Shown here one piece after another: positions 1 through 22,618 of a stretch of DNA of 22,618 bases. Position 1 is the stretch's first letter, and each line of letters opens with the position of its first letter. The translations under genes were made by a program, and so were the position numbers. The DNA comes from a virus. Below the pieces are notes generated by a model, which had not been told where the DNA came from, ran no database searches, and saw only the letters and a list, made by a program, of their open reading frames with translations. The DNA is taken from positions 1-22,618 of IMG/VR virus record IMGVR_UViG_3300046010_011077. One strand, 5' to 3'.

Positions 1-24
1 AATACGAATGGCGTAACAATTATT

Positions 25-702
25 ATGGCTTCAACAGTAGGCACTCGCCTAGCATTTGAAAAAGCGAAACAGGCTATCAATAACGCCGGTTTTTCGCTCG
101 GACAGGCTGTACTTTCACAGTCCTATCTTCGTTTGGAAGTAGCTTTATCAACTACTATCACAAGCTATCAGTTCCCAGTACTCACTAATGACGTTAGCAG
201 CTCAAACACCAGCAGCTTCAATACTGAGCAGCGTTTGAACTTGCAGGACGCTTTCGTGTGTTCTTCAATCGGTCTGTTTTTCGCTGTACCTGGCAGCAGC
301 ACCGCTAGCAATTATCGGCTGTTTACTTACCCTAGCCCGATCACGTTCTCGGCTTCTAATACAGCCACTAGCTTGCTGAACTGGTATAACAGCTCGCTCA
401 CTTTGACTGTTAATAACCGTCAAATTGTGCCAGCCTATGACCTGTACAGACACTATTTTGTGCCACAAACGCAAGCCCAGACAGCGCCTTACTACGCTGC
501 CAATACCCAAGCGTTTGTAGATCAAAACGACGGTAGCAATGACGCTTTCTATCCTGTAGAGCCAGCTTGGGTACTGGTGGGATCAAAGCAAAATTCACTA
601 CAAGTACAGTTGCCACAAGCTATGGCCGCAGTTGAAACAAACAGCCGCGCGATCCTTATTCTTCGTGGTCACCTGGCCCAGAACGTCACCCCGGTAAGAT
701 AA
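25..702 (+). CDS. Candidate major capsid protein (225 aa, beta-rich)
   Basis: I infer a major virion protein; I do not recognise the family with certainty. The 225 residues have no signal peptide or membrane segment. After a short helical N-terminus (residues 1-30) the protein is rich in Ser, Thr, Asn, Gln and aromatic residues in alternating patterns, as expected of a jelly-roll. Three features point to high expression: the gene has its own leader with a stem-loop, it is followed by a strong terminator, and it differs from its copy at 12970 by only two residues (Gly/Ser near 90, Ala/Ser near 156). It lies between a basic membrane protein (in unit 2, at 12464) and a second beta-rich protein. 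It could instead be a minor virion protein. Start ATG at 25 follows an A/T-rich leader without a clear Shine-Dalgarno. Confidence 0.55.
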   Translation: MASTVGTRLAFEKAKQAINNAGFSLGQAVLSQSYLRLEVALSTTITSYQFPVLTNDVSSSNTSSFNTEQRLNLQDAFVCSSIGLFFAVPGSSTASNYRLFTYPSPITFSASNTATSLLNWYNSSLTLTVNNRQIVPAYDLYRHYFVPQTQAQTAPYYAANTQAFVDQNDGSNDAFYPVEPAWVLVGSKQNSLQVQLPQAMAAVETNSRAILILRGHLAQNVTPVR

Positions 703-778
703 TGATTTTCAGCGACTTATAACAAGTCCTAAATCACAACCGGAGTAACATTTTGAGCAAAGTGTTCAATAAAAAAAG

Positions 779-806
779 AGGGCCGGTTTCGGCCGGCCCT
801 TATTTT
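779..806 (+). terminator. Terminator or attenuator after the capsid gene
   Basis: An 8-bp GC stem (AGGGCCGG, 779-786, with CCGGCCCT, 793-800) closes the six-base loop TTTCGG, and TATTTT follows. It lies inside the late unit just after the candidate major capsid gene, so it probably reduces transcription of downstream genes and not of the capsid gene. The hairpin is identical in unit 2 although the spacer before it is not. Confidence 0.75.
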
Positions 807-829
807 CAAAAAAAGTAAAATTTAAGACA

Positions 830-1261
830 ATGGCATTTAAGGCCGCTAAATACGAACTGGTAGAGCTACTGGTTCCCGGTGTAGCAGTAACAGGACAGAC
901 ACAAACGCAATGGTCGTTCCCAGATCTACCCAAGCTACGCTATACAGCACTGATGGCGCTGGAAACGTTCGCCGTTGATACAGTAACCGTATCACCTAAC
1001 AACGTCGCTTTGCCGTCCGCAGCTATTATGCAAAAAAGTTATCTGGTACTCTATTCAAACGAGCGCCAGGACTTATTCCGTATTCCTTTAGTATCACTGA
1101 TCCGCACCCAGGCTACAACTAGCGCCAGCGCGCCTTTTGTACGTAGCTTGCCAGAATTTAGCGGACAAAAGATCACCTGGGATAAGAGCTATGTAACAAT
1201 CGCGTCGGCACCAGCCAACACGACTAACATTAGTTTTGTTTTCGGCGTTTACTATATCTAA
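830..1261 (+). CDS. Candidate second capsid-type protein (143 aa, beta-rich)
   Basis: This 143-aa protein has no membrane segment. It is dense in Val, Thr, Tyr and Ile with short strand-like blocks, including LRYTALMALETFAVDTVTV near residues 42-60 and a C-terminal strand ending FVFGVYYI. The size and pattern fit a single jelly-roll or other beta-sandwich. Its place directly behind the candidate major capsid gene suggests a structural partner. Viruses with two single jelly-roll capsid proteins encode them side by side, which makes this attractive but unproved. The copy at 13725 differs by a single residue (Val/Ile near 124) despite many silent changes, so the protein is under strong constraint. 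The internal terminator upstream implies a lower dose than the first capsid gene. A vertex or minor coat role is equally possible. Confidence 0.5.
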   Translation: MAFKAAKYELVELLVPGVAVTGQTQTQWSFPDLPKLRYTALMALETFAVDTVTVSPNNVALPSAAIMQKSYLVLYSNERQDLFRIPLVSLIRTQATTSASAPFVRSLPEFSGQKITWDKSYVTIASAPANTTNISFVFGVYYI

Positions 1262-1267
1262 AAAACT

Positions 1268-1945
1268 ATGGCTGCAACAGCACAACTACGAAACGCAAGC
1301 GCCGTCCTAAACTGGTATAACGAGCAGCCGCAGGCTGCCTGGAAGATCTTTAGGTTTTCAGTAATGGCTAAAAACATTACTGGCGCTTATGACGGTAAAA
1401 GCAAGGACGAAGGATACGAAAAGCTACAAACGGAGCTTTCGTATATTTCGCCGGACGACTACAACAATTTTGTTCTCGGTCTATACAACGACAAGGACAA
1501 AGAAAGAGTAGCGCCAGCGATCAATAAAGTTTTTGTGCTAAACGAAGCGCCGCTAGGTATGATCGCAGGCTACGGCGTCAGCAATCAGCAAGCCCAGGTA
1601 AATAACGAGATACTAAACGAGATCCGCGCACTACGAGCTGAACGAATGGCCGAACTGGAAACCGACGACGAAGAAGAAGAAGAGGCAGAGCAGCCAGTAA
1701 CGCCGTCCAGTATTTTAGCCGGTATGCTACAGCAACCACAAGTACAACAAATGTTAATCGCTATGCTAGGCAATTTAGTAAACAGCTTTTCGGCACCCAA
1801 GGTGCAGCACGTAAGCGGCACCCAGGACGTAGAGCAAATTATTCAAACACTATTTAGCAAAGGGGTAACAGCCGACGACCTGGCGAAGCTGGCAGCTATG
1901 CCGCAGGCGCAGATCAGTATGCTGTTATCAATGCTTAGAAAGTAA
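1268..1945 (+). CDS. Acidic coiled-coil structural protein (225 aa), function unknown
   Basis: Function is unrecognised. Three parts can be seen. Residues 1-105 form a mixed helical domain. Residues about 110-142 form a helix (NNEILNEIRALRAERMAEL) running into an acidic run, ETDDEEEEEAEQ. The C-terminal third contains Met-, Leu- and Gln-rich amphipathic helices (near 148-172 and 182-225). Such a layout would suit a scaffold, a capsid-membrane linker or an assembly factor. The start is ATG at 1268, six bases after the previous stop. The copy at 14163 is the same length and differs mainly around residues 167-170 (NLVN against SIVS) and one Ser/Ala near 216. Its place among virion genes is the main reason to call it structural. 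Confidence 0.6.
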   Translation: MAATAQLRNASAVLNWYNEQPQAAWKIFRFSVMAKNITGAYDGKSKDEGYEKLQTELSYISPDDYNNFVLGLYNDKDKERVAPAINKVFVLNEAPLGMIAGYGVSNQQAQVNNEILNEIRALRAERMAELETDDEEEEEAEQPVTPSSILAGMLQQPQVQQMLIAMLGNLVNSFSAPKVQHVSGTQDVEQIIQTLFSKGVTADDLAKLAAMPQAQISMLLSMLRK

Positions 1946-1947
1946 CT

Positions 1948-2406
1948 ATGCCACAGATCAGCGCACGACAGCTTATTGGTAAGTCAATAAGAGCAGAAAG
2001 GCGGGCAAATTTTTACCGGGTTAGCGACGTCAATAATTTAGGCGATAAGGCTAAGCCAGTAAGCAATATGCTGCCGGTGGGCTATACCTTAAAGGTGGAT
2101 AGTTTTTTGAGTAAGACGCCAGCATATACGAATATCTATGGCATTCGCTATGCGGCCAGAAAGGACGATTATATCACCTTTTTTGGCAAAGACGGAAAAT
2201 ACTATGCGATTAAGGTGCAGGATATTGGATTAAGCGCGCAGCAAAGGCGGCAGGCTGGTATTAAGACGGTAGAGGAAGAAATAAAAGAGGCACAGGAAGC
2301 TAATTTAACAACATTAGATAAACTGGCACGCTTCGGCAAATACCTGGCAATCGGTATAGCAGTAGTTTGGGCCGGTGGATATATCTACAAAACGACAAAA
2401 AAATGA
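1948..2406 (+). CDS. Exchangeable locus, variant A: 152-aa protein with C-terminal membrane segment
   Basis: Function is unknown. The 152-residue protein has a basic, mostly soluble N-terminal domain (1-110) with the strand-rich stretch YITFFGKDGKYYAIKVQDIG. A charged helix follows near 100-120, then a membrane segment near residues 128-147 (YLAIGIAVVWAGGYIY) ending in Lys residues. The topology matches the other tail-anchored small proteins of this unit. At the same position unit 2 has an unrelated 155-aa gene (14840), while flanking genes stay collinear, so this is a true gene replacement. The stop overlaps the next start in ATGA. It starts just after the preceding stop with no visible Shine-Dalgarno. 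A membrane virion protein or a host-interaction protein are the main options. Confidence 0.65.
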   Translation: MPQISARQLIGKSIRAERRANFYRVSDVNNLGDKAKPVSNMLPVGYTLKVDSFLSKTPAYTNIYGIRYAARKDDYITFFGKDGKYYAIKVQDIGLSAQQRRQAGIKTVEEEIKEAQEANLTTLDKLARFGKYLAIGIAVVWAGGYIYKTTKK

Positions 2407-2753: not shown

Positions 2754-2763
2754 ATATACGACA

Positions 2764-2982
2764 ATGAAAAAAGGAACTATACTTTACCTGGTAGCCGCAG
2801 CCGCGCTATATTACTACTGGATCAGGCGCAAAAAGGCAACTGGCAAAAATTCACCAAGCGCAGAAAGCGCAGCCAGTACAGCCCGGCAAATGGTGGCCGA
2901 TATTGTAGATCAAACGACATTTGTAGCGGACGACACAACTTTTGCAAAGCAGTACGCTAAAGATCAAAAACTTTGTAGATAA
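2764..2982 (+). CDS. Small single-pass membrane protein (72 aa)
   Basis: A short N-terminus, MKKG, leads into a membrane helix at about residues 5-19 (ILYLVAAAALYYYWI) and a basic stop-transfer, RRKK. The rest is a soluble tail with small residues and an acidic C-terminal part. ATG 2764 is chosen over an in-frame ATG at 2722, because the copy at 15664 has the same 72 residues from this point and 2722 lies inside the previous gene. The stop overlaps the next start as TAATG. The tail varies between units (FVADDTTFAKQY against FIPDETTMRQEY) while its last residues, AKDQKLCR, are identical. A virion-membrane protein is likely from context; function is unknown. Confidence 0.65.
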   Translation: MKKGTILYLVAAAALYYYWIRRKKATGKNSPSAESAASTARQMVADIVDQTTFVADDTTFAKQYAKDQKLCR

Positions 2983-3233
2983 TGGCCTGTATTAAGTTCA
3001 TAACAGAGACAAAGATATTTCAGCAATCTGGCCAGACGGATACGAACGCTAACAGCGTTATATTCGTCAATCAAGGCACAAGCAACGTAACCGTGGACGG
3101 TTTTTTGCTTACGCCGAACCAGTCCTGGAATATAACCGGTAACCGCGACGAGATCAATGTTAAGGTCTATAGCTTTAATTTTAGCGGCACCGGCACTAAT
3201 CAACTGACAGTAATACTTAAACGATACGTTTAA
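2982..3233 (+). CDS. Small beta-rich protein upstream of fibre (83 aa)
   Basis: This 83-aa protein has no membrane segment. Nearly all of it is predicted-looking beta strand with Asn, Thr and Ser turns (NSVIFVNQGTSNVTVDGFLL, then WNITGN). A beta-sandwich or small spike-base fold would fit. It is joined by TAATG to the gene before and to the fibre gene after, so the three are translationally linked. The protein in unit 2 is the same except Ile/Val near residue 4, so it is constrained while the adjoining fibre varies. A connector between fibre and capsid vertex is a reasonable inference; there is no family evidence. Confidence 0.6.
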   Translation: MACIKFITETKIFQQSGQTDTNANSVIFVNQGTSNVTVDGFLLTPNQSWNITGNRDEINVKVYSFNFSGTGTNQLTVILKRYV

Positions 3234-5764
3234 TGTTCGTTAATTTTAATATATTAAACCAGCTTGGATCGCCAGCTATCAATAGTAATGTGTTTGCTAA
3301 CAGGCCCGCCGCAGGACAGACAGGGCGGCTCTTTGTTAGTACCGATACTTTTGAGATCTACCGGGATAATGGTACTACCTGGGATCTAATTGGCGGCCCA
3401 GGATCTAGCACGATAACTGGAACAGGTACGGCAACGCAAGTGGCTTATTTTACCAGCTCCCAGGCAATCGGATCTAGTGCTAACCTATTTTGGGATAACA
3501 CAAACAGTTTTTTAGGAGTAGCGACAGCCACACCAACAGCCACAATTGAGGCTGTAAAAACAGACGGTATTGGGATCTATGCTAATTTTACTACTAACGT
3601 CGGTACTGGATCAAACGCTTTCGGATTATTAGCTAAAAACGTAACTAATAGCAGCGGATATGCCGCTGTTATTGAAGAAACGACGCCAAACACAACAGCG
3701 GGCCAATATCCTTTGCTCGTAAAACATAGCCTATCTAGTGGCACGGCTGGCGTGGGTATGGGTACCGGAATACATTTTCAGCTACCTGACGACGCTGGTA
3801 CATTTAAGACGACACAGCTAACTATTGAAACAATAGACGCAGCCGCCGCAACATACGCGACGCGTTACCGTTTTATGGTACAAAGTGCAGGGAGTAGCAC
3901 GCCAGCAGCTTACCTTAATGCTACCGGACTGGGATTGGGAACGGCTACGCCTGGAGCTAAATTAGATATTCACAGCACAGGCGTAATGGCGCAGCTAAAT
4001 TCTACGAGCGCAACTGCAAACAGTTTACTGGCGTTTCAGCGTAGCGGTAGTGGACTTTGGCGCATAGGCGACGCCTATAACGGTGGAAACAACTATTTTG
4101 AGTTACATAATACTGTACTAACCAATAACGCTATAGAGGTACTTGCCGCCAGTAATGAAGCTACTTTTTTATCTACAAAAACATATAGCACCGGTAACGC
4201 AATCGGAGTAGCGGTACAGCACAATTTAACTATACCTAACGGAGTAAACGTAGGACTAGCCGCGTTAGGTGGAGTAAATAGTAATCTAAATTTAACGCTA
4301 GGCGGCAGCACTACTGTAGCAAATACTGGCAGACAGGGGCTAGAGGGTAGTACCAGTATTAGCTTTACTGGCGCTGGTACTTTAACAATGACGCAAGGCA
4401 GTACTGTGCGCGCATTTAGCGCGCTTAGTAGTGTTTATGCGTTTAATGGTAGCGCAGTAGGAACTATTACGCACCTTGCTGGACTTCGCATTTGCTTTCC
4501 TGATAACGTTGGTAGCGCAGTAAATATCACTAATAACTACGCGCTACTAATAAACAATCAAACAACTGGTACAGGTACAGTAACCTATACTAACCGCTGG
4601 GGGATCTATCAAGAGGGCGCGAGCGATCTAAACTACTTTGCTGGCAATAGCCTTTATGGTACTACGACAAACGTAGGTGCTAAAATATCTATTGCTGGTT
4701 ATATGTATATCAATAATAGACCACTAGCACAAATAGTGTTTGATAGTACTGGATCTTACTATGGACAGATACAAAATGACGCAGCCGATAAATTTAGTTT
4801 TGCACGAAACACTCTAAACGACGGAACATTAGGCACGCCAATAATGACGTGGGACGCTGCTAATATACGAGTTGGAATAAATACCAGTAGCCCTAATTCA
4901 ATTTTTGAGGTTAAAAGCACTGGTACTGGATTAAAAACATTAGTAGGTGCTTTTAGGGATAGTTCTACAAATGGTAACGGAATAGAAATTTACAATCAAG
5001 ATAATTTATCAAGCATATATTCTACATACTATACTGGTGCAAGCAATCAAGATTTAGGATTTTTTACAACTACTAACATTGGTGCGCAAAATGAAGTATT
5101 GCGTTTAACCAGTACACAAAGAGTAGGAATTTCAACTAGCACGCCACAGTATAAATTAGATATTACTGCTTTGGGTTATGGAGTGCAACATTATGGCGAT
5201 GTAAATAATTCTTTAAGGACTTATGCTGGAAGTGGATACCAAGTAATTGAGGCAACAAATTCAGGTACAGTAAATCAATTCGGATATCTTTCAGGCGGTT
5301 TTTATATTGATACGAGTGCAACTGCAAGATTTAGAATAACTACTGGCGGAAATGTTTTGATAAATACAAATACTAATAGCGGTCAAACTTTACAGGTTAA
5401 TGGCAACGGCTTTTTTGGCGGTCAAATTCAATTATCTGGTACTGGATATAATGCTACAAATTCTCCAACAGTTTTTTTAACAAATACTACTGCAACTACT
5501 GGTAGAAACTATGGAATAAATAGTTTTGATAGTGGTGGTTTTCAAATTTTTGACGTAACTAATTCAAATGCTACAGTTTTTGCTATTAGCTCTAGTAGTA
5601 ATGTTTCTTTAATAGGATCGTTAACAACAGGCACACCTACAGGTGGCACAGCCGCAGCGTGGAAACTTGGCAGCCGCGTAGCAGCAACAGTAGTAGTAAA
5701 CACGACTGAATATATTGAGGTAGATATAGGCGGCACTCTTTACAAATTAGCAACAGTAACTTAA
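3233..5764 (+). CDS. Receptor-binding fibre, long variant (843 aa)
   Basis: This is the large fibre or spike protein, probably a beta-helical trimer that binds the host surface. The composition is Gly, Thr, Ser and Asn rich with almost no Cys. Residues 1-92 are a conserved N-terminal anchor containing RLFVSTDTFEIYRDNG. Repeated modules begin with LG(V/L/I)xTATP followed by a strand such as LDIHSTG, at about residues 94 and 235, and similar STP(Q)YKLDIT units lie near 640. Unit 2 lacks the first module (about bases 3512-3927), which explains most of the 132-residue length difference. Bases about 4594-5400 are close to unit 2, but the centre (4105-4590) and C-terminus (from about 5405) are different. 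The last third is distinctly A/T rich. The end (EYIEVDIGGTLYKLATV) resembles fibre tips of Bacteroidota phages. Confidence 0.8.
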   Translation: MFVNFNILNQLGSPAINSNVFANRPAAGQTGRLFVSTDTFEIYRDNGTTWDLIGGPGSSTITGTGTATQVAYFTSSQAIGSSANLFWDNTNSFLGVATATPTATIEAVKTDGIGIYANFTTNVGTGSNAFGLLAKNVTNSSGYAAVIEETTPNTTAGQYPLLVKHSLSSGTAGVGMGTGIHFQLPDDAGTFKTTQLTIETIDAAAATYATRYRFMVQSAGSSTPAAYLNATGLGLGTATPGAKLDIHSTGVMAQLNSTSATANSLLAFQRSGSGLWRIGDAYNGGNNYFELHNTVLTNNAIEVLAASNEATFLSTKTYSTGNAIGVAVQHNLTIPNGVNVGLAALGGVNSNLNLTLGGSTTVANTGRQGLEGSTSISFTGAGTLTMTQGSTVRAFSALSSVYAFNGSAVGTITHLAGLRICFPDNVGSAVNITNNYALLINNQTTGTGTVTYTNRWGIYQEGASDLNYFAGNSLYGTTTNVGAKISIAGYMYINNRPLAQIVFDSTGSYYGQIQNDAADKFSFARNTLNDGTLGTPIMTWDAANIRVGINTSSPNSIFEVKSTGTGLKTLVGAFRDSSTNGNGIEIYNQDNLSSIYSTYYTGASNQDLGFFTTTNIGAQNEVLRLTSTQRVGISTSTPQYKLDITALGYGVQHYGDVNNSLRTYAGSGYQVIEATNSGTVNQFGYLSGGFYIDTSATARFRITTGGNVLINTNTNSGQTLQVNGNGFFGGQIQLSGTGYNATNSPTVFLTNTTATTGRNYGINSFDSGGFQIFDVTNSNATVFAISSSSNVSLIGSLTTGTPTGGTAAAWKLGSRVAATVVVNTTEYIEVDIGGTLYKLATVT

Positions 5765-6068: not shown

Positions 6069-6224
6069 ATGGCAAACGTAACGGAACTAAAGGCCCAGGC
6101 CTACGACCTACTGGCAAACATTGAATTTTTGCAATCTAAGCTACGCGAGGTCAATATGGCGATAGCAGAAGAAACTAAAAAACAGCAAGAAAGTGGATCT
6201 AAACATAGCGACGATAGTAATTAG
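6069..6224 (+). CDS. Small coiled-coil protein (51 aa)
   Basis: This is a 51-residue hydrophilic protein, starting MANVTELKAQAYDLLANIE. It is almost entirely helical with heptad-like Leu/Ile spacing (Leu7, Leu14, Ile18, Leu21, Leu25), and its end, SDDSN, is polar. Small helical proteins of this kind sit near lysis genes in Bacteroidota phages. It starts four bases after the previous stop. Its last 32 bases are also the start of the next gene in another frame. The copy at 18568 keeps the length and has two changes (Met/Ile and Lys/Gln), which supports it as real. A role is unknown; a regulator of the lysis proteins is possible. Confidence 0.6.
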   Translation: MANVTELKAQAYDLLANIEFLQSKLREVNMAIAEETKKQQESGSKHSDDSN

Positions 6225-6384
6225 TAGTATTTGTAGCTTTGTAGCGTCTTGGGCCGTGCTTAACCAGCGTGTAAAAACGCTGGAAGAAAAGCAGGCTAAG
6301 CACGACGACCACGGCGAGCGCCTGATCCGGCTGGAAACCAAGCTAGATATACTCATTCAGCAATTTAAGCGCAGCAGCCTTTGA
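6193..6384 (+). CDS. Membrane protein with coiled coil, possible holin-type accessory (63 aa, GTG start)
   Basis: Residues 5-22 (IATIVISSICSFVASWAV) are a membrane segment, followed by a charged coiled coil (VKTLEEKQAKHDDHGERL, then a second helix to the end). This N-terminal anchor plus coiled coil is the layout of many phage lysis accessory proteins. The start is GTG at 6193; an in-frame stop (TAG 6163-6165) lies upstream and no ATG precedes the membrane segment, so GTG is the only reasonable choice. It overlaps the 51-aa gene by 32 bases. The same GTG is kept at 18692 and the 63 residues are identical, despite many silent changes. The stop overlaps the next start in TTGA. Confidence 0.6.
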   Translation: MDLNIATIVISSICSFVASWAVLNQRVKTLEEKQAKHDDHGERLIRLETKLDILIQQFKRSSL

Positions 6385-6548
6385 AAACACAGCTAATTAG
6401 AATCGCAGACGTGGCCTATATTGGGCCGTTTATGCTGTATGCGGCCACTAAGCTAAAAGGCCAGGATCGGGCTATAATGACAGCCCTGGGCCTTGCAACT
6501 ATAATCTATAACGGAATAAACTTTGTAAAAAATGAAAAAGCTATTTAA
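6381..6548 (+). CDS. Small hydrophobic protein with TTG start (55 aa)
   Basis: The gene begins with TTG (6381), overlapping the previous TGA as TTGA, and reads KTQLIRIADVAYIGPFML onward. The middle holds a moderately hydrophobic stretch, and a second one with LGLATIIYNGINF lies near the C-terminus, so two weak membrane helices are possible. It is joined to the 54-aa gene, whose ATG lies inside its last codons (17-base overlap). The copy at 18880 keeps the TTG, the length and the reading frame while many third positions differ, which is the main support for this ORF. Membrane and lysis context suggest a holin-system component. An ATG-started shorter form (internal Met) cannot be excluded. Confidence 0.55.
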   Translation: MKTQLIRIADVAYIGPFMLYAATKLKGQDRAIMTALGLATIIYNGINFVKNEKAI

Positions 6549-6696
6549 GAACTGGAAAACGACTTTTTTTGGCTTTGCCACTATTATCGGCGGCGTGGCC
6601 GCTATTTTGAAAGGCGACCTGGTTACCGGAATCACAACAATAGGAGCTGGTCTCGGCCTTACAGCGGCTAAAGATTTTGATAAATCTGGTCTGTAA
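6532..6696 (+). CDS. Holin-like small membrane protein (54 aa)
   Basis: This 54-aa protein starts MKKLFKNWKTTFFGFATIIG and has two short hydrophobic segments (residues about 12-25 and 32-45) separated by the turn KGDL. The C-terminal part reads LGLTAAKDFDKSGL. Small proteins of this pattern, placed directly before an endolysin, are common in Bacteroidota phages and are usually taken as holins. It lies four bases upstream of the muramidase ATG. Protein sequence is nearly unchanged at 19031 despite silent differences. I infer that it permeabilises the cytoplasmic membrane or releases the muramidase; no experimental family is identified. Confidence 0.6.
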   Translation: MKKLFKNWKTTFFGFATIIGGVAAILKGDLVTGITTIGAGLGLTAAKDFDKSGL

Positions 6697-8042: not shown

Positions 8043-8849
8043 ATGGCAAACGACGTCCGACTAATTACTGCGCTGCTTCACGCCAGGCGATACGACGCTA
8101 AAAATAGACCACCTGCGCAAGAGCCTATTTTTACTATCCAGGGCAAAGTAGTGGGCTGCCTGCAGAGCTACATTGTTTTTTCGGGCCTGCCCAAGGCCAG
8201 CAAATCAACATTTGTGGGAGCTGCGGCCGCGTCAGCCCTGGTGCCGCCCTTTCAAGGCATTTGGGGTATGAAGCTGCAGCTTCCAGTTAATAGGCCCAGG
8301 ATCGGCTACTTTGATACTGAAATGAGCAGCTTTGATTTTTACCGGCAAATAGATAAGATAGTAAGCCTGGCTGAAAAGCAAAAGTTACCTGATTTTTTTG
8401 ACGCCTATAGTATGCGAGAAGATATGCCCAGCAAGATCCGTATAATGATAGAGCAGTATTTGATAGAAAATAAGGACTGTAGCTGCCTTATTGTGGACGG
8501 CCTACTGGACTTATGCCTGGACTACAACGATCCTAAAGAAACGCGCCTAGTAACGAACTGGCTGAAGCGGATCACTAAGCAATACGATATTTTGCTGATC
8601 GGCGTCCTGCACCTGGGTAAAGGCCACGGCGAAACGCTGGGCCACCTTGGTAGCAATACTGATCGCTGGAGCCAATCAACAATGATCGTGGAAAAAAATA
8701 AGGACACAGGCCAGTTTGTACTCAAGCCTAAATACATACGAAGCGACGGCGATTTTGAGCCGGTAGCCATAATGAACTACAACGGACGCTGGAGCCAGGT
8801 GCCGTACATTGAGCCAGCGCCTGTGGCACCTACAAAAAAGAAAAATTAA
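8043..8849 (+). CDS. RepA/AAA_25-like RecA-fold ATPase, probable replicative helicase
   Basis: I infer a RecA-fold NTPase of the RepA/DnaB-like (AAA_25) group that unwinds DNA during viral replication. The Walker A loop is residues 48-56, GLPKASKST, where Ser53 replaces the usual Gly. A catalytic-type Glu93 lies in FDTEMS, Walker B is LIVDGLLDL with Asp152, and the sensor-like HLGKG has His190. GHLGS at 200-204 matches the conserved Gly-Ser loop of this family. The 268-aa length is typical of single-domain RepA proteins. It is placed between small early genes and an 88-aa protein. A packaging ATPase role is less likely, because the motif set is not that of FtsK/HerA or terminase families. The copy at 20544 keeps all the motifs including Ser53. 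Confidence 0.8.
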   Translation: MANDVRLITALLHARRYDAKNRPPAQEPIFTIQGKVVGCLQSYIVFSGLPKASKSTFVGAAAASALVPPFQGIWGMKLQLPVNRPRIGYFDTEMSSFDFYRQIDKIVSLAEKQKLPDFFDAYSMREDMPSKIRIMIEQYLIENKDCSCLIVDGLLDLCLDYNDPKETRLVTNWLKRITKQYDILLIGVLHLGKGHGETLGHLGSNTDRWSQSTMIVEKNKDTGQFVLKPKYIRSDGDFEPVAIMNYNGRWSQVPYIEPAPVAPTKKKN

Positions 8850-8882: not shown

Positions 8883-9149
8883 ATGGAACAGAAAAACAAC
8901 AGCGGCAGCCTTTACAAAAACACAAAAGACAAGCCAACGCAGCCGGACTACACCGGAACGGCCACCATTGCCGGAAAGCAGTACCGTGTTAGTGGCTGGG
9001 TAAATAAGAGTAAGGCTGGCGCTAATTATTTGCGCGTCTTATTTAGCGAGCAGCAAGCCCAGGATCTAAACGTGGCGGCTAGCCAGGCTACTATGCCTAT
9101 ACAGCCACAAAGCAGCAATGATCCTATGCCAGACGATCTGCCTTTCTAA
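8883..9149 (+). CDS. Small DUF736-like protein, possible single-strand DNA-binding factor (88 aa)
   Basis: The start MEQKNNSGSLYKNTKDKPTQ and the following DYTGTATIAGKQYRVSGWVN match a small protein type frequent in Bacteroidota phages and plasmids, with a DUF736-like or OB-type beta core over residues 10-58. The last 25 residues are a disordered Gln/Ser/Pro linker ending in an acidic tip, DDLPF, as in single-strand DNA-binding proteins whose acidic tail recruits partners. This, plus the place after the helicase, is the basis for the call. The copy at 21384 has an identical core with changes only in the tail, ending in the same DDLPF. Confidence 0.6.
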   Translation: MEQKNNSGSLYKNTKDKPTQPDYTGTATIAGKQYRVSGWVNKSKAGANYLRVLFSEQQAQDLNVAASQATMPIQPQSSNDPMPDDLPF

Positions 9150-9509: not shown

Positions 9510-9535
9510 GTACCCTTTACAAGACATTACTTTTA

Positions 9536-9557
9536 TTAAATAAAGGTGAATACAGGT
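9536..9557 (-). repeat. 22-nt inverted repeat partner of 12904-12925
   Basis: This sequence is the exact reverse complement of 12904-12925. It contains AGGTGA-ATAC-AGGTAA, two hexamers one helical turn apart, with the second one base off. Unit 2 at 22050-22073 has the perfect AGGTGA-ATAC-AGGTGA form and matches 12902-12925 over 24 nt. It is a likely protein-binding site. Confidence 0.75.
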
Positions 9558-10208: not shown

Positions 10209-11459
10209 ATGGACGCAACTACTTTAATGGGTAGGCTGGGGCCGTTTCAAAATAGACGTGAAATGCTTACGGCAGATCAAAGTACCGGCGACATAATAGA
10301 CGCCATACTGGAAGCGCACCGCAGGCACGCACACGACTACAGTAAAATAAGTTCTTTTTTTAATGCGGGATCAAGGCGAGCAACGGCGCGCAAAATTTTT
10401 AATTTTCTTAAAAACAATGTGCGCTATGTAATTGAGCCAGGAAGCAAGCAGACCGTGAAAAGCCCTGCAGCAATCCTGGCGACTGGTTACGGCGACTGCA
10501 AACACTATAGCCTTTTTGCTGGCGGCGTTTTACAAAATTTAGGCATACCGTTTGCCTATCGCTTCGCTAGCTATAAAATTTTTGATAAGCAGCCGCAGCA
10601 CGTTTTTGTAGTTGTTAATCCCGGCACCAGTAACGAAATATGGATAGATCCAGTCGTAGGCGACTTTGATTATAAAAAACCGTACACGTACGCAACAGAT
10701 AGAAAAATGGCACTATACTCAATAAGCGGAATTGGCGCAACAGCGCAACAAAAGGCGGCTTTGAAAGCTGCTAAAGCAGCAAAGAAAGCGGCGCCGACTA
10801 AGGCGGCGAAACAAGCAGCCCAGACGTCAGTCGTGGCTGCCCGCAAAGCTGCCGGCCGTACTGCTGGCCAGGTATTAAAGAAAGGCGCTAAAGTAGTTCT
10901 AAAAGTAGCGGCCGCACCAGTTAGAAACTCATTTTTGCTACTGGTTACTATCAATTTTGCAGGACTAGCCAATAAGCTAGCCGCTGCCTGGCAAAAAGCA
11001 CCTAGCAAGCTCACAAGTTTTTGGGAGGGAGCCGGGGGCCAGATAAATGCACTGAAGAAAGCCTGGGAAAAGGGATCTACTAAAAAGCGAATTTTTGGAA
11101 TGGAGCAGATAGGCGTAGCGCCAGCAGCACCAGCCGCAGCCGCCGCAACTGCAGCGCCACTACTGGTTAAGGTAGCCGACTTTTTTACTAAAATTGGAAT
11201 AGATCCGGCAGAGCTTGTACAGGTAGGTAAGGACGCGCTAAATAAAAAAGCCCAGGAGCTAGCTAAAAAAGCCCTGGAGCCAAAGGCAGCAACTGAAGCT
11301 ACTAACATTGACATTGCCGACCAGGTATTTGAGCCAGCCGATCTGCAGCCCACTACTGATATGGCACCAGCTCAAACGACAGCCACAAAAAAACCTAATT
11401 TTTTACCGTTACTAATCGGCGGCGCTGCCGTTTTGTATTTTGTAACTAGAAAAAAATAA
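10209..11459 (+). CDS. Transglutaminase-like protein with C-terminal membrane anchor (416 aa)
   Basis: Residues 55-150 form a transglutaminase-like (papain-fold) domain. The catalytic triad is Cys97 in GYGDCKHYS, His131 in QPQHVFVVV and Asp147 in IWIDPVVGD, in the family order. Such domains act as proteases or peptide-modifying enzymes; the target here is unknown. Residues about 174-232 are a long Ala/Lys-rich basic stretch that may bind DNA or lipid. A hydrophobic segment lies near 240-255, then an Ala-rich linker and a C-terminal membrane anchor, LPLLIGGAAVLYFVTRKK. Possible roles are a virion enzyme for entry, a capsid maturation protease, or a cross-linking factor. It has no copy in unit 2, because the window ends first. 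Confidence 0.75.
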   Translation: MDATTLMGRLGPFQNRREMLTADQSTGDIIDAILEAHRRHAHDYSKISSFFNAGSRRATARKIFNFLKNNVRYVIEPGSKQTVKSPAAILATGYGDCKHYSLFAGGVLQNLGIPFAYRFASYKIFDKQPQHVFVVVNPGTSNEIWIDPVVGDFDYKKPYTYATDRKMALYSISGIGATAQQKAALKAAKAAKKAAPTKAAKQAAQTSVVAARKAAGRTAGQVLKKGAKVVLKVAAAPVRNSFLLLVTINFAGLANKLAAAWQKAPSKLTSFWEGAGGQINALKKAWEKGSTKKRIFGMEQIGVAPAAPAAAAATAAPLLVKVADFFTKIGIDPAELVQVGKDALNKKAQELAKKALEPKAATEATNIDIADQVFEPADLQPTTDMAPAQTTATKKPNFLPLLIGGAAVLYFVTRKK

Positions 11460-11460: not shown

Positions 11461-12150
11461 ATGACAGCAAAGCAAAGAGCAGCCAGGGCAAAATTCAAGG
11501 CCGTAGTCGCAGAAGCAAAAAAGCTGCGAAAGAAAAATCCGAAGCTTACGCAAGCGCAAGCCGTTAAGCAAGCCTGGGCGATTAGCTATAGTAAAAAGCG
11601 TGCTGGAGTAGGCGCTGCGCCTAAAAAGAAAGCAGCAACGACTAAAGTAAAAGCTAAGAAAAGTAAGCGCACTAGCGAAATGCACACCGACACTAAGAGC
11701 CACAATGTAAATATTCGTGTGGTTAGTGGTATTAAAGTAAAAAGTAAAGAGTTAAGAAAACAACTAGAAAAGAAAGGATATAAACTTACTCACGGCTATA
11801 CAGTAGCAAAAAGAAAGAGAATAGGCGAAATGCCAACTTTTAGTGATCCCGACGCAGCAAGAGAAATTGAATTGTATGCAGATAATGATAGCCAATTATA
11901 TTTTCAAATGAGAAAGCCTATTTTGATCAATTTAGGTAAGAAATATAAAAAAGGTACTTACGATATTGATAAGGCAGCAAAGTTGTGGCGTTATTACATT
12001 GAAGCTGCAATGAAAAAATATAATAAAGAGTTCGGCAGTCGTGGCGATAAATGGTTTGAGTTATTAAATACAAACGATAGAAATTTGTTAGCGCGCGACT
12101 ATGCAATAAGAACAAAAGAAGAATTTGATTTAGGAAATTTTGTAGATTGA
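11461..12150 (+). CDS. Chimeric basic protein with phage-type C-terminal domain (229 aa)
   Basis: There are three parts. Residues 1-75 are very basic (MTAKQRAARAKFKAVVAEAK, then KKRAGVG and a Lys/Ala run), typical of a DNA-condensing or virion-internal domain. Residues about 80-118 hold a VRVVSG-like strand and basic helix. Residues 120-229 (EIELYADNDSQLYFQMRKPI onward) resemble a domain I have seen in other phage proteins but cannot name. Base composition drops to A/T rich from about 11700 to the end, unlike the neighbours, suggesting the C-terminal part came from elsewhere. The stop overlaps the next ATG as TGATG. Probably a structural or genome-associated protein. No unit 2 copy is in the window. 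Confidence 0.6.
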   Translation: MTAKQRAARAKFKAVVAEAKKLRKKNPKLTQAQAVKQAWAISYSKKRAGVGAAPKKKAATTKVKAKKSKRTSEMHTDTKSHNVNIRVVSGIKVKSKELRKQLEKKGYKLTHGYTVAKRKRIGEMPTFSDPDAAREIELYADNDSQLYFQMRKPILINLGKKYKKGTYDIDKAAKLWRYYIEAAMKKYNKEFGSRGDKWFELLNTNDRNLLARDYAIRTKEEFDLGNFVD

Positions 12151-12428
12151 TGTATAAAATCTTACCCTATACAGCAGCGCAGGCCCGGCGCCTTAACGTA
12201 AAGATCCGGCCAAGCAGCAGACAGGGTAAAAAACTGGACGTATATGACAGACAAGGAAACTACATAACGAGCGTTGGGGCCAGGGGTTACCTGGACTATC
12301 CTACGTACAAAAAGTTATTCGGTAAGGCAGTAGCAGATCAGCGCCGAAAACTTTACAAGGCCAGGCACGAAAAGGACAGAAAAGTGAAAGGATCGCCAGG
12401 CTACTTTGCTGATCGGCTACTATGGTAA
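12150..12428 (+). CDS. Small basic protein, DUF5754-like (92 aa)
   Basis: The start is ATG 12150, overlapping the previous TGA; an upstream TTG at 12147 would add one residue only. The protein is basic and soluble. It reads YKILPYTAAQARRLNVKIRP, then GYLDYPTYKKL near residue 50, and ends with YKARHEKDRKVKGSPGYFAD and LLW. The closing pattern (RHEKDR, then GSPGYFAD, LLW) resembles a small family known from large eukaryotic DNA viruses and some phages (DUF5754 by memory). Function is unknown; a virion-associated DNA-binding protein is likely given the neighbours. Confidence 0.6.
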   Translation: MYKILPYTAAQARRLNVKIRPSSRQGKKLDVYDRQGNYITSVGARGYLDYPTYKKLFGKAVADQRRKLYKARHEKDRKVKGSPGYFADRLLW

Positions 12429-12463: not shown

Positions 12464-12895
12464 ATGGCAAGACGTAGAAAAAGCACTAAGAGACGCAGTT
12501 CACGCCGTCGTATGGGTGCCGTTGGCAAAGCCAACATTCAAGCAGCTCTGGGCATTATTGCCGGCGCTGTAATCGGTAAAAAAGTCGCTGGGTTTATTCC
12601 TGTAGGCGATGATCGTATCAAAAATGCAGCTGTACTGGGTATCGGTCTGGCGTTCCCAATGATCCTTAAAGGTGATCTGGGTAAGGCTATCGGTAACGGT
12701 ATGATCGCTGCCGGTGGAGCTGGTCTGGTAGGCGGCCTTATCCCTGCACTGGGGCAAATGGACGATACTATGACGTTCCCAGTAACCGTTGGCGAAATAC
12801 CTGACAATATCAGCGTAATCGCCGGCGATGACAGCGTAATGGCTGGCGACGATCTTTCAGTCCTGGCTGGTATGGAAGAAGATGAAACGTACTAA
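12464..12895 (+). CDS. Basic-start, Gly-rich membrane protein (143 aa), probable virion protein
   Basis: The start MARRRKSTKRRSSRRRMGAV carries about eleven Arg/Lys in 16 residues and could bind the genome. Residues 25-95 hold three Gly/Ala/Ile-rich membrane-type segments (IQAALGIIAGAVIGKKVAGF, then LGIGLAFPMIL and a GMIAAGGAGLVGGLI stretch). The C-terminus is acidic with three variants of (I/M/L)AG-DD (VIAGDD, VMAGDD, SVLAGM), ending EEDETY. A protein linking DNA, membrane and capsid would fit. Codons favour CTG, GGT and GCT, as in the capsid gene, suggesting abundance. It directly precedes the capsid gene of unit 2. Confidence 0.65.
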   Translation: MARRRKSTKRRSSRRRMGAVGKANIQAALGIIAGAVIGKKVAGFIPVGDDRIKNAAVLGIGLAFPMILKGDLGKAIGNGMIAAGGAGLVGGLIPALGQMDDTMTFPVTVGEIPDNISVIAGDDSVMAGDDLSVLAGMEEDETY

Positions 12896-12901: not shown

Positions 12902-12925
12902 TCACCTGTATTCACCTTTATTTAA
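12902..12925 (+). repeat. TCACCT-GTAT-TCACCT repeat before capsid gene
   Basis: Two TCACCT hexamers (12902-12907 and 12912-12917) are one helical turn apart, followed by TTATTTAA. The 22 bases from 12904 are the reverse complement of 9536-9557, and 24 bases match 22050-22073. The shorter CACCTGTATTCA core occurs also at 9213-9224 and 21714-21725. It is a likely operator acting on capsid-gene and control-region transcription. Confidence 0.7.
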
Positions 12926-12936
12926 CTAAAAGCCCC

Positions 12937-12969: not shown

Positions 12970-13647
12970 ATGGCTTCAACAGTAGGCACTCGCCTAGCAT
13001 TTGAAAAAGCGAAACAGGCTATCAATAACGCCGGTTTTTCGCTCGGACAGGCTGTACTTTCACAGTCCTATCTTCGTTTGGAAGTAGCTTTATCAACTAC
13101 TATCACAAGCTATCAGTTCCCAGTACTCACTAATGACGTTAGCAGCTCAAACACCAGCAGCTTCAATACTGAGCAGCGTTTGAACTTGCAGGACGCTTTC
13201 GTGTGTTCTTCAATTGGTCTATTTTTCGCTGTACCTAGCAGCAGCACCGCTAGCAACTATCGGCTGTTTACTTACCCCAGCCCGATCACGTTCTCGGCTT
13301 CTAATACAGCCACTAGCTTGCTGAACTGGTATAACAGCTCGCTCACTTTGACAGTGAATAACAGACAAATAGTGCCTGCCTATGACCTGTACAGACATTA
13401 CTTTGTGCCACAAACGCAAGCCCAGACAGCGCCTTACTACTCTGCCAATACACAGGCATTTGTAGATCAAAACGACGGTAGCAATGACGCTTTCTATCCT
13501 GTAGAGCCAGCCTGGGTGTTGGTGGGATCAAAGCAAAATTCACTACAAGTACAGTTGCCACAAGCTATGGCCGCAGTTGAAACAAACAGCCGCGCGATCC
13601 TTATTCTTCGTGGACATCTGGCCCAGAACGTTACGCCTGTACGTTAA
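12970..13647 (+). CDS. Candidate major capsid protein, unit 2 (225 aa)
   Basis: Same protein as at 25, with two residue changes (Ser for Gly near 90 in VPSSSTAS, Ser for Ala near 156 in PYYSANT). The first 245 bases of the gene are identical to unit 1; silent changes then appear in the second half, about 20 in total. Here the full leader is visible: the TCACCT repeat (12902), the stem-loop (12937) and an A/T-rich stretch before the ATG, with no clear Shine-Dalgarno. The preceding gene is the basic membrane protein at 12464. Beta-rich, no membrane segment; the role as major coat is inference. Confidence 0.55.
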   Translation: MASTVGTRLAFEKAKQAINNAGFSLGQAVLSQSYLRLEVALSTTITSYQFPVLTNDVSSSNTSSFNTEQRLNLQDAFVCSSIGLFFAVPSSSTASNYRLFTYPSPITFSASNTATSLLNWYNSSLTLTVNNRQIVPAYDLYRHYFVPQTQAQTAPYYSANTQAFVDQNDGSNDAFYPVEPAWVLVGSKQNSLQVQLPQAMAAVETNSRAILILRGHLAQNVTPVR

Positions 13648-13724: not shown

Positions 13725-14156
13725 ATGGCATTTAAGGCCGCTAAATATGAACTGGTAGAGCTACTGGTTCCCGGTGTAGCAGTAACAGGACAGACACAAA
13801 CGCAATGGTCGTTCCCAGATCTGCCCAAGCTACGCTATACAGCACTAATGGCGCTGGAAACGTTCGCCGTTGATACAGTAACCGTATCGCCTAACAACGT
13901 CGCTTTGCCGTCCGCAGCTATTATGCAAAAAAGTTATCTGGTACTATATTCAAACGAGCGCCAGGACTTATTCCGTATTCCTTTAGTATCACTGATCCGC
14001 ACCCAGGCTACAACTAGCGCCAGCGCGCCTTTTGTACGTAGCTTGCCCGAGTTTAGCGGACAAAAGATTACCTGGGATAAGAGCTATATCACTATCGCGT
14101 CGGCTCCTGCCAACACGACTAACATTAGCTTTGTTTTCGGCGTTTACTATATCTAA
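13725..14156 (+). CDS. Candidate second capsid-type protein, unit 2 (143 aa)
   Basis: This is the equivalent of the gene at 830 with one residue change (Ile for Val in SYITIAS, near 124) and a scatter of silent differences. Very low protein change with clear silent divergence is what a tightly packed coat protein would show. It begins after the internal terminator and an A-rich leader (CAAAAAAAGTAAAATTTAA). Beta-rich; structural role inferred from context. Confidence 0.5.
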   Translation: MAFKAAKYELVELLVPGVAVTGQTQTQWSFPDLPKLRYTALMALETFAVDTVTVSPNNVALPSAAIMQKSYLVLYSNERQDLFRIPLVSLIRTQATTSASAPFVRSLPEFSGQKITWDKSYITIASAPANTTNISFVFGVYYI

Positions 14157-19699: not shown

Positions 19700-19725
19700 A
19701 TAGCTGATTTTTATACATTTTAGGC

Positions 19726-19802: not shown

Positions 19803-19828
19803 TTTACTAACCTTAAATTATCGGAACT

Positions 19829-20240: not shown

Positions 20241-20470
20241 CCCAGGACAATCTCGGTCGTATCATTGCGCCAATCCCTGGAATGACTAAGCTAGAGTATT
20301 TTGCTATCCAGCTGCTACCTACCTACCTGGAGCTGGGCAAAAAACACCCACTAGCCGACAAAGGCGAGCCGATCACACCTATACAAGCTGCGATCATTAC
20401 TGCAAAAACATTACTAGACCAATTAAACGAAAAGCAAAATGAAAAAGATACTCTACAGATTATTGAATAG
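20201..20470 (+). CDS. Early soluble protein, unit 2 (89 aa)
   Basis: Equivalent of 7700, with Thr for Ser near 29, Thr for Asn near 71 and Gln for His near 79. Pro-rich start and two helices are kept. It overlaps neighbours on both sides. Function unknown. Confidence 0.65.
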   Translation: MENYNLPAFPPQVAQDNLGRIIAPIPGMTKLEYFAIQLLPTYLELGKKHPLADKGEPITPIQAAIITAKTLLDQLNEKQNEKDTLQIIE

Positions 20471-20537
20471 CCCTAAATTTTGGCTACTGATCATTTTTAC
20501 TTTTATGCTCTGGCTATCTAGCTACTGGAATATGTAA
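20439..20537 (+). CDS. Membrane peptide, unit 2 (32 aa)
   Basis: Equivalent of 7938 with Ile for Thr at residue 4. Basic start, one membrane helix, WNM end. The stop lies six bases before the ATPase start. Conservation supports translation, but shared sequence with the 89-aa gene weakens the test. Confidence 0.5.
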   Translation: MKKILYRLLNSPKFWLLIIFTFMLWLSSYWNM

Positions 20538-20543
20538 AAAATA

Positions 20544-21350
20544 ATGGCAAACGACGTTCGACTAATTACTGCGCTGCTTAAGGCCAGACGATACGACGCT
20601 AAAAATAGACCACCTGCGCAAGAGCCTATTTTTACAATCCAGGGCAAAGTAGTGGGCTGCCTGCAGAGCTATATTGTATTTTCGGGCCTGCCTAAGGCCA
20701 GCAAGTCAACATTTGTGGGAGCTGCGGCAGCGTCAGCCTTGGTGCCGCCCTTTCAAGGAATTTGGGGAATGAAACTGCAGCTGCCAGTCAATCGGCCCAG
20801 GATCGGCTATTTTGATACTGAAATGAGCAGCTTTGATTTTTACCGGCAAATAGATAAGATAGTAAGCCTGGCTGATAAGCAAAAGTTACCTGATTATTTT
20901 GACGCCTATAGTATGCGAGAAGATATGCCTAGCAAGATCCGCATAATGATTGAGCAGTATTTAATCGAAAACAAGGACTGTAGCTGCCTTATTGTGGACG
21001 GACTACTGGACTTATGCCTGGACTACAACGATCCCAAAGAAACGCGCCTAGTAACTAACTGGCTAAAGCGGATAACTAAGCAATACGATATTTTGCTGAT
21101 CGGCGTACTGCACCTGGGTAAAGGACACGGCGAAACGCTGGGCCACCTGGGGAGTAATACTGATCGCTGGAGCCAGTCAACAATGATCGTGGAAAAAAAT
21201 AAGGACACTAGCCAGTTTGTACTGAAGCCTAAATACATACGAAGCGACGGCGATTTTGAGCCTGTCGCCATAATGAACTACAACGGACGCTGGAGCCAGG
21301 TGCCTTACATTGAGCCAGCACCGCAGGTACCTACAAAAAAGAAAAATTAA
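20544..21350 (+). CDS. RepA/AAA_25-like ATPase, unit 2
   Basis: Equivalent of 8043, 268 aa. Walker A GLPKASKST with Ser53, Glu93, Walker B Asp152 and His190 are all present. Seven or so residues differ, none in motifs (Lys for His at 13, Asp for Glu at 111, Tyr for Phe at 118, Ser for Gly near 224, and the last residues). Many silent changes show purifying selection. Probable replicative helicase. Confidence 0.8.
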   Translation: MANDVRLITALLKARRYDAKNRPPAQEPIFTIQGKVVGCLQSYIVFSGLPKASKSTFVGAAAASALVPPFQGIWGMKLQLPVNRPRIGYFDTEMSSFDFYRQIDKIVSLADKQKLPDYFDAYSMREDMPSKIRIMIEQYLIENKDCSCLIVDGLLDLCLDYNDPKETRLVTNWLKRITKQYDILLIGVLHLGKGHGETLGHLGSNTDRWSQSTMIVEKNKDTSQFVLKPKYIRSDGDFEPVAIMNYNGRWSQVPYIEPAPQVPTKKKN

Positions 21351-21383
21351 CCTGGGAACAGAGGCAACTGAACAGCAATAATT

Positions 21384-21650
21384 ATGGAACAGAAAAACAA
21401 CAGCGGAAGCCTTTACAAAAACACAAAGGACAAGCCCACGCAGCCGGACTACACCGGCACGGCCACCATTGCCGGAAAGCAGTACCGTGTTAGTGGCTGG
21501 GTAAACAAGAGTAAGGCCGGAGCCAATTATTTGCGCGTCTTATTTAGTGAGCAGCAAGCCCAGGATCTAAACGCGGCGGCTAGCCAGGCCAGTATGCCTA
21601 TACAGCCAAAGAGCAGCCACGATCTTGTGCCAGACGATCTACCTTTCTAA
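21384..21650 (+). CDS. Small DUF736-like protein, unit 2 (88 aa)
   Basis: Equivalent of 8883. Residues 1-60 are identical; changes are confined to the disordered tail (AAASQAS, KSSHDLVP), and the acidic tip DDLPF is kept. The pattern of fixed core plus free linker plus fixed tip is that of single-strand DNA-binding proteins, which supports that idea without proving it. Confidence 0.6.
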   Translation: MEQKNNSGSLYKNTKDKPTQPDYTGTATIAGKQYRVSGWVNKSKAGANYLRVLFSEQQAQDLNAAASQASMPIQPKSSHDLVPDDLPF

Positions 21651-21743
21651 AAAAAAGCGCCAGGAGCGAAGCTCGACTGGCGCAGACAAACGACTGCGGA
21701 ACTGGCCGCGAGTCACCTGTATTCAATGCTAAAATAGTACAAA
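21651..21743 (+). promoter_or_regulatory. Structured intercistronic element, unit 2
   Basis: Same elements as 9150-9242: hairpin 21657-21683 (GCGCCAG/CTGGCGC with inner GAGC/GCTC, loop GAA), GACAAACGAC, a GCGG/CCGC hairpin and CACCTGTATTCA (21714-21725). Differences from unit 1 fall in loops and the 2-base bulge. Confidence 0.55.
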
Positions 21744-21944
21744 ATGAGTAAAAAACTGGAAACGGCGATAGTTTTTTTTAAGCCTGGCACCAAGCGGCCC
21801 AGGAAATACCGAAATATCACTAATAGGCTCAAATTTGGCCAATTTTGCGCCAGTTGCGGCGCCTGGTATATTAACTGGTATGACAAGGAAACGGCCAATT
21901 TTGAGGGCCGCACGTGGCTCATAAGCGATTTTGAGAAAAAGTAG
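21744..21944 (+). CDS. Small CxxC protein, unit 2 (66 aa)
   Basis: Equivalent of 9243. Both Cys of FCASCGAWYINWYD are kept and Ala replaces Val between them. The C-terminus is FEKK, one residue shorter than in unit 1. Followed by a spacer that differs from unit 1 and then terminator 21994. Function unknown. Confidence 0.6.
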   Translation: MSKKLETAIVFFKPGTKRPRKYRNITNRLKFGQFCASCGAWYINWYDKETANFEGRTWLISDFEKK

Positions 21945-21993
21945 TATATTTATTTTCTCATAAGCAGTTGGTTTAGGGTTTTTTAAGCAATTC

Positions 21994-22023
21994 GGCCTGG
22001 CGTTTCAACGCCGGGCCTTTTTT
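21994..22023 (+). terminator. Early-operon terminator, unit 2
   Basis: Same hairpin as at 9480 (21994-22004 with 22007-22017, two-base loop) and six T. Upstream spacer from the CxxC gene is changed and contains an extra T-run near 21979. Confidence 0.9.
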
Positions 22024-22049
22024 GTACCCTTTACAAGACATTGCTTTTA

Positions 22050-22073
22050 TTAAATAAAGGTGAATACAGGTGA
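22050..22073 (-). repeat. Unit 2 copy of the AGGTGA-ATAC-AGGTGA repeat
   Basis: This is the reverse complement of 12902-12925 over 24 bases. Both AGGTGA hexamers are intact and one helical turn apart. The unit 1 copy at 9536 has one changed base in the second hexamer. Confidence 0.75.
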
Positions 22074-22124
22074 ATGTGGATATTTTGAGCTTCGAAAATA
22101 TACAATATATCAGTTTTTTTCACT

Positions 22125-22184
22125 AACTTCGCCAGAGACCGCGCAGCGGCCCTACAGAGCCGCGCGCGGGCTCGGCGAAAAGTT
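22125..22184. other. Large conserved hairpin, unit 2, candidate origin
   Basis: All 60 bases are identical to 9613-9672, including bulges and the CCTACAGA loop. The flanks have substitutions, so the hairpin is the constrained part. Confidence 0.6.
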
Positions 22185-22215
22185 ACAAAAAAGGAAAAGT
22201 TTTGAAATAGATTTT

Positions 22216-22258
22216 TTTGTTTGACTTTTTAATCTTATTTTCGGTAACGACAAACGAC
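22216..22258 (+). promoter_or_regulatory. Probable late promoter, unit 2
   Basis: TTTG boxes (22216-22219 and 22220-22223), TATTTTCG (22236-22243), three bases, ACGACAAACGAC (22247-22258). Layout equals 9704-9746. Confidence 0.6.
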
Positions 22259-22288
22259 AAGGATCTAAAAGGCCGCAGCACATTGTAA

Positions 22289-22618
22289 ATGCGGAATATC
22301 TTACTACTGGTAGGCGGCGCAGCTGCACTGTTTTTCTTATCACGCTATCGCTTCGGGCAAAGAGCGATATTTTCACTACGATCACTACGCCCAGGCGGCA
22401 CGTTGTTCGCACCGGTATTTAACGTGGAACTGGCCGTCGCTAATCCTACTAACCAGGCTATAGTCATTAAGTCAATTACTGGATCTATAAACGTACAGGG
22501 ATCAACTGTCGCCAATGTATCAGCGTTCGGCGATCAGCGCGTAGCTGCTAACAGCGAAAGTATTTTGAAACTGCAGGCAAGGCCCAGCGCTGTCGGTGTG
22601 TTTGAAACGGTGCGCGAG
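22289..22618 (+). CDS. LEA2/WHy-like anchored protein, unit 2 (partial, 3' end outside window)
   Basis: Equivalent of 9777, open to the window edge: 110 codons without a stop. N-terminal anchor NILLLVGGAAALFFLSRY and the NPTNQAIVIKS strand region are unchanged; Val and Glu replace unit 1 residues in the first strand (APVFNVELAVAN). The C-terminal 32 residues are not in the window. Confidence 0.65.
   Translation, partial: MRNILLLVGGAAALFFLSRYRFGQRAIFSLRSLRPGGTLFAPVFNVELAVANPTNQAIVIKSITGSINVQGSTVANVSAFGDQRVAANSESILKLQARPSAVGVFETVRE

Follow-up and report, generated by a model that had tools for sequence, protein, structure and literature searches.

The window analysed here is the whole of IMG/VR virus record IMGVR_UViG_3300046010_011077 (22,618 bp), which comprises 1.75 turns of one circular unit of ~12.5-12.9 kb; followed gene by gene over the two turns, the repeat offset falls from 12,945 bp to 12,483 bp. 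All open reading frames (ORFs) of the unit, including those at 25, 830 and 1268, lie on the + strand (Table 1). The ratio of nonsynonymous to synonymous divergence (dN/dS) between turns is mostly 0.02-0.28 and reaches 0.40 in the fibre gene g08, the fastest evolving, and this purifying selection indicates that the ORFs are real genes. An earlier note, made from the letters alone, had proposed a complete gene set of about 12.5-12.9 kb from a new lineage of tailless, probably membrane-containing Bacteroidota virus, and the unit length is borne out by 40 distinct complete circular relatives of 10,619-13,646 bp. We consider it probable that the element is a tailless icosahedral virus of Bacteroidota with a circular, probably double-stranded DNA (dsDNA) genome of ~12.9 kb and a shell of two jelly-roll proteins over a membrane.

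Scans of viral contigs yielded more than 200 loci that encode g01 (218 in one tally), and the lineage is common in IMG/VR while not described in the literature searched; the Charybdis elements (PMC12324425), which are 4.6 kb marine archaeal elements, are not the same. Besides the window clade, the loci form a clade with ~64% g01 identity (L114-L119) and another with ~42% (L091/L169-L187). Nine genes (g01, g02, g03, g18, g20, g21, g22, g23 and g25) occur in all 40 complete genomes, and gene order is identical in the 91 loci with enough genes to check it.

The capsid candidates g01 and g02 are the most conserved beta proteins of the set and are neighbours in all relatives. The AlphaFold2 model of g01, with 33 family members in the alignment, has a pLDDT of 80 and predicts that its 225 aa form one barrel, a single jelly roll of the vertical type. 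Its best matches among solved structures in VIA-align are mostly capsid proteins with a vertical jelly roll, from viruses that have no tail and in most cases contain a membrane (SPV1, Z 7.3; PBCV-1, 7.2; P23-77 VP17, 6.2; SH1, 6.0; HHIV-2/HCIV-1, 5.5). The enzyme PHM also appears, at Z 5.7, so that the Z score is by itself no proof; FLiP penton, PRD1-type and PHM proteins are likewise found in the fold lists of g01 with lower or similar scores. The best match in BFVD is I1ZBH9, a viral protein of 211 aa (E 5e-4, probability 1.00), which is the length of gp46 and gp35 of Salisaeta icosahedral phage 1 (SSIP-1); no link between this accession and SSIP-1 could be established. The model of g02 is all-beta (pLDDT 76) and gives weaker matches than g01, with SPV1 at Z 6.6 and plant virus jelly rolls at about 6, the SPV1 capsid protein being the top match for both. 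In viruses with two single-barrel capsid proteins, of the P23-77/SH1 type, both genes are adjacent (PMC4958249), and the adjacency of g01 and g02 would agree with that arrangement provided that both are capsid proteins. The structure prediction and fold search proposed in the earlier note thus placed the protein at 25 among vertical jelly-roll capsids, and gave for that at 830 an all-beta fold; the protein at 1268, named in the note together with these two, turned out to be of coiled-coil type and is no coat candidate.

Scans against Pfam and PHROGs covered nearly all window proteins (a few tiny ORFs were left out) and found neither the Caudoviricetes hallmarks (terminase, portal, HK97 capsid) nor a tail tube, tape measure, integrase or the rolling-circle HUH Rep of Finnlakeviridae and Microviridae. 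Among the complete circular relatives no tail, terminase or portal gene belonging to the genome was found. The absences listed in the earlier note therefore stand for the window, whereas one of the more distant relatives does carry a HUH Rep. Furthermore, no candidate was found for the double jelly-roll capsid protein of Corticoviridae, Tectiviridae or Finnlakeviridae (roughly 270-400 aa or longer), the window proteins above 250 aa being the fibre, the transglutaminase-like protein and the ATPase only.

Several claims about the remaining genes proved sound. The GH24 muramidase is recovered by PF00959 (4e-43), and the RepA-like ATPase g18 matches AAA_25 just below the curated cut-off (E 8.8e-6), with a relative in L091 above it (1.8e-8). 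Many small membrane proteins had been noted, and the hydrophobic segments of g04b, g05, g11, g13 and g16 are conserved in most members or in all of them, at a level higher than in residue-shuffled controls. In g22, Cys97, His131 and Asp147 are invariant columns, as expected for a transglutaminase, and a transmembrane-like (TM-like) segment is present in 88 of 104 members. The g04 locus holds two unrelated membrane-anchored proteins in the two turns, and both types recur in relatives (14 and 49 loci). Shine-Dalgarno motifs precede just 2 of 26 starts. A PHROG "tail protein" match of g05 (E 0.0026) was put down to its Lys/Ala-rich composition, and a Marinobacterium match (L193), short and weak, was set aside. 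Among the matches of g18 to gut "Bacteriophage sp." records, the one examined (L195, MT836017, from human faeces) resembles a plasmid-type element of Bacteroides that encodes ParA, ParB and an integrase, and was discarded.

Table 1. Genes and sites of the circular unit, with positions in the window.
Feature	Description	Position	Strand	Remarks
g01	putative major capsid protein, 225 aa	25..702	+	second copy 12970-13647
g02	putative second capsid protein, 143 aa, all-beta	830..1261	+	second copy 13725-14156
g03	coiled-coil-type protein, 225 aa, conserved morphogenesis protein	1268..1945	+	40/40 genomes; homologue in L202
g04	protein with C-terminal membrane anchor	1948..2406	+	
g04b	turn-2 replacement of g04, unrelated, N-terminal TM segment	14840-15307		
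g05, g06	small proteins, N-terminal hydrophobic segment	2403..2982	+	TM-like in g05 70/70, g06 24/68 members
g07	small beta protein preceding fibre; possible vertex adaptor	2982..3233	+	L202 homologue, hhalign probability 94%
g08	fibre-like protein, 843 aa (711 aa in turn 2)	3233..5764	+	repetitive, Gly/Asn/Ser/Thr-rich; no Pfam match
g11-g13	small proteins; g11 and g13 membrane proteins, holin candidates	6193..6696	+	TM-like in g11 87/92, g13 71/71 members
g14	GH24 endolysin, N-terminal membrane segment	6700..7200	+	PF00959 4.2e-43; phrog_7 4.9e-56
g16	membrane protein, 54 aa	7575..7739	+	TM-like in 78/78 members
g18	RepA-like RecA-fold ATPase, probable replicative helicase	8043..8849	+	AAA_25 8.8e-6
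g19	phage single-strand DNA-binding protein	8883..9149	+	phrog_18154 1.6e-13; adjoins g18
u2	inverted-motif site, between g20 and g21	9531..9557	+	
g21	LEA_2-domain protein, N-terminal membrane segment	9777..10205	+	PF03168 1.1e-5
g22	transglutaminase-like protein, C-terminal membrane anchor	10209..11459	+	PF01841 6e-7
g23, g24	strongly basic proteins	11461..12428	+	net charge +33, +16
g25	membrane protein, Arg/Lys-rich N-terminus	12464..12895	+	TM-like in 64/86 members; homologues in proviruses
u1	inverted-motif site, between g25 and next g01	12904..12930	-	

More distant relatives extend the lineage into Bacteroidota genomes. L202, a circular 11.4 kb genome from a metagenome-assembled genome bin, keeps homologues of LEA_2, the transglutaminase (hhalign 99.9%), the basic membrane protein, g01 (98.9%), g03, g07 and g23, lacks AAA_25 and carries a GH108 lysin. 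An extra 160-aa beta protein follows its g02-like gene (4469-4951) and is possibly a third shell or vertex protein. In the bacterial contigs L221-L226, the largest of which is a 7.3 Mb chromosome, the genes of the module keep this order too; the g01 homologues there measure 255-302 aa, and most of the contigs also have LEA_2 and transglutaminase homologues. In that chromosome, L225 (G680:C1 4,076,500-4,096,400) is a provirus of 14.9 kb whose module adjoins a Rep_1 rolling-circle HUH protein (4.8e-14) and lies inside two 23-bp direct repeats that are 14,880 bp apart and occur nowhere else in that genome. The repeat has the dif-type form CATAA-N6-TTAT, and dif seems to be the site used by proviruses of Bacteroidetes microviruses (PMC3091885), so that Xer-mediated integration is a reasonable inference for L225. 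No flanking repeat of 20 bp was found at the ends of the G549 provirus, and in the window the only dif-like site is a chance match across the g01 start codon. A broadened profile detected the capsid gene in 19 genomes out of 398 sampled from one order of Bacteroidota, compared with 1 of 395 genomes of a phylum-wide sample. The window and these loci would belong to one broad lineage, defined by the LEA_2/transglutaminase/membrane/capsid module, with varied replication modules and with proviruses among its members.

The nearest characterised virus is SSIP-1, a phage that contains a membrane and has two types of capsid protein (PMC6356626, PMC4958249). In a collection of 50,697 phage records, g22 matches one virus only, through SSIP-1 gp34, which is annotated as a structural protein (E 1e-4; hhalign 96.9%, at the domain level), and the g22 homologue of L202 likewise has gp34 as its sole match in the phage collection. 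SSIP-1 shares with the window a Bacteroidota-type host, the lack of a tail, a membrane and two kinds of capsid protein (both of these predicted for the window), a transglutaminase-like membrane-anchored virion protein (gp34) and an AAA_25 ATPase (gp40, annotated as structural, a virion ATPase), and with L202 and L221 a GH108 endolysin. It differs by its 43.8 kb genome, its integrase, invertase and primase and another gene order downstream, and its capsid proteins have no sequence match to those of the window. Nevertheless, SSIP-1 is likely a distant relative judging from these protein matches, and the window lineage is thus not isolated from known viruses. The lineage proposed in the earlier note accordingly keeps its tailless and probably membrane-containing character, with the g01 fold, the conserved membrane segments of many small proteins and the lack of tail genes in its favour, while its novelty is tempered by SSIP-1.

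A parallel module with ParA/ParB is carried by Persicobacter plasmids (CP012856, CP012854, CP012861, NZ_AP025302, NZ_AP025293), whose transglutaminase, GH108 and spike-like proteins match SSIP-1 gp34, gp31 and gp56. It has LEA-like, transglutaminase, membrane, beta, coiled-coil and TM proteins, GH108 and a holin, in an order parallel to that of the window (hhalign with the window lineage: transglutaminase 99.2%, membrane protein 78%). In contrast with the window, it resides in 47-53 kb plasmids or megaplasmid regions with ParA/ParB and Rep, and its capsid proteins have no sequence match to the window's; a profile link from g01 or g02 to SSIP-1 or Persicobacter beta proteins was also sought and none was found. 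The SSIP-1-like virus modules of Persicobacter plasmids and megaplasmids (L209, L210, L211, L213 and L214) are unannotated as viruses, and strain JZB09 has several. The relatives in Bacteroidota contigs, the Bacteroidota-only links (Salisaeta, Persicobacter) and the near absence of Shine-Dalgarno motifs together point to a Bacteroidota host, in agreement with the earlier note.

Compared with viruses of the P23-77/SH1 type (Helvetiavirae, realm Singelaviria), the window has predicted vertical single jelly-roll capsid proteins, adjacent genes and a probable internal membrane in common, but a smaller genome, no packaging ATPase found and no sequence similarity. Portogloboviridae SPV1, whose host is archaeal, was compared by fold only. 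FLiP and PhiCjT23 (Finnlakeviridae) resemble the window by their small circular genome, Bacteroidota host, lack of a tail and lipid, the last being inferred for the window, and differ by a double jelly-roll capsid protein, of which the window has none. They carry a Rep gene, which the window is without.

Several points weigh against a two-jelly-roll membrane virus. The Z scores of g01 are middling (7.3 at best, below 8), every E value in its Foldseek search against the PDB exceeds 0.001, though the list is largely viral jelly rolls, and g01 has no sequence link to any known capsid protein. The match list of g02 is mixed with non-viral beta sandwiches, and Transglut_core and AAA_25 are widespread domains. 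Finally, no FtsK/HerA packaging ATPase was found, g18 being the sole ATPase of the window, while known P23-77/SH1-type viruses have one. A packaging role for g18 is unlikely because the capsid module is retained in the circular L202 and in the proviruses, which have no AAA_25 homologue; moreover, neither L202 nor the provirus loci L221-L226 have a convincing Walker ATPase. As a packaging ATPase is missing from both complete genome types (the window lineage and L202), the possible mechanisms are replication-coupled single-stranded DNA (ssDNA) packaging, a host motor and nucleoprotein condensation, none of them favoured over the others.

We would class the virus as a new lineage, at family or order level, within a known kind of virus; it would count as a new kind only if packaging were shown to be ATPase-free or the capsid of independent origin. 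A bolder version, to which we give somewhat less than an even chance, is a separate single jelly-roll lineage of Bacteroidota, of order or higher level, whose capsid module moves among unrelated replicons (RepA-helicase circles, HUH-Rep proviruses possibly at dif, ParAB plasmids) and which packages without a dedicated ATPase. It is unlikely, although worth serious consideration, that the same virus packages an ssDNA genome as FLiP and microviruses do, its DNA being encapsidated during replication with no need of a packaging ATPase. The lack of such an ATPase in the window family, L202 and the proviruses, the single-strand DNA-binding protein g19 and the Rep_1 protein in L225 all speak for it; however, the window family encodes a RepA-like helicase but lacks an HUH Rep, the Persicobacter forms resemble ParA/ParB plasmids, and the lineage comes as hundreds of contigs from ordinary metagenomes, which would under-sample ssDNA.

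As for the record itself, synonymous divergence (dS) between its turns ranges from 0.14 to 0.94 across genes, g04 is swapped for an unrelated protein and the fibre shortens from 843 aa to 711 aa in turn 2, while identity is 98-99% around both strain-switch points. Turns that have diverged and yet are nearly identical at the joins indicate two strains fused there, and two co-occurring strains joined in assembly are most likely on this sequence pattern. The end overlaps of the circular relatives, mostly 127 bp (k-mer-sized) and typical of assembled circles, would likewise favour unit-length circles. That the 22.6 kb record is a genuine natural tandem dimer or concatemer, as its unbroken run over 1.75 turns could suggest, is very improbable given these differences, the near identity at the switch points and the unit-length relatives. 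Scarcely credible is a capsid-less plasmid-like or vesicle-borne mobile element, for which the missing sequence match to known capsid proteins and the occurrence of the RepA-like ATPase type in Bacteroides plasmids might be invoked, against the endolysin, the fibre, the conserved adjacent beta proteins with a capsid-like fold and the homologue of a virion protein.

Each genome also carries the motif TTTAAATAAAGGTGAATACAGGT exactly twice, in opposite orientations (u1 and u2). Its 3' half varies among relatives (ATACAGGT, ATGCAAGT, ACACAAGT, ACGAAAT and others) and is nearly always alike within one genome (mean inverted match of 23.9/28 vs 17.1 direct); the L169-L187 clade lacks the motif. It may serve as a regulator site, as a recombination site or in ssDNA pairing; inversion of g21-g25 between the sites was considered and rejected, as all genes lie on one strand in 186 loci.

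Returning to the tailless membrane virus, the neighbouring genes g01 and g02 would most likely provide two single jelly-roll proteins that build the shell, and beneath it would lie a membrane whose proteins are the small anchored g04-g06, g21, g22 and g25. The membrane-anchored g22 would probably serve in assembly or cell-wall passage, the basic g23-g25 may condense the DNA, and g08 would bind the host. Replication would be carried out by g18 and g19, and lysis by g14 with small membrane proteins. The genomes compared show a conserved late module of strictly kept order, an exchangeable replication module and a lysis gene. Through the lineage, the orphan phage SSIP-1 is connected with many genomes and with plasmids of cultured Persicobacter strains. 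Two questions become testable with it, namely by what means a membrane virus packages its genome when no packaging ATPase can be recognised, and how a single capsid module comes to be paired with different replication systems. As their capsid genes have no sequence matches, tailless viruses are under-recognised.

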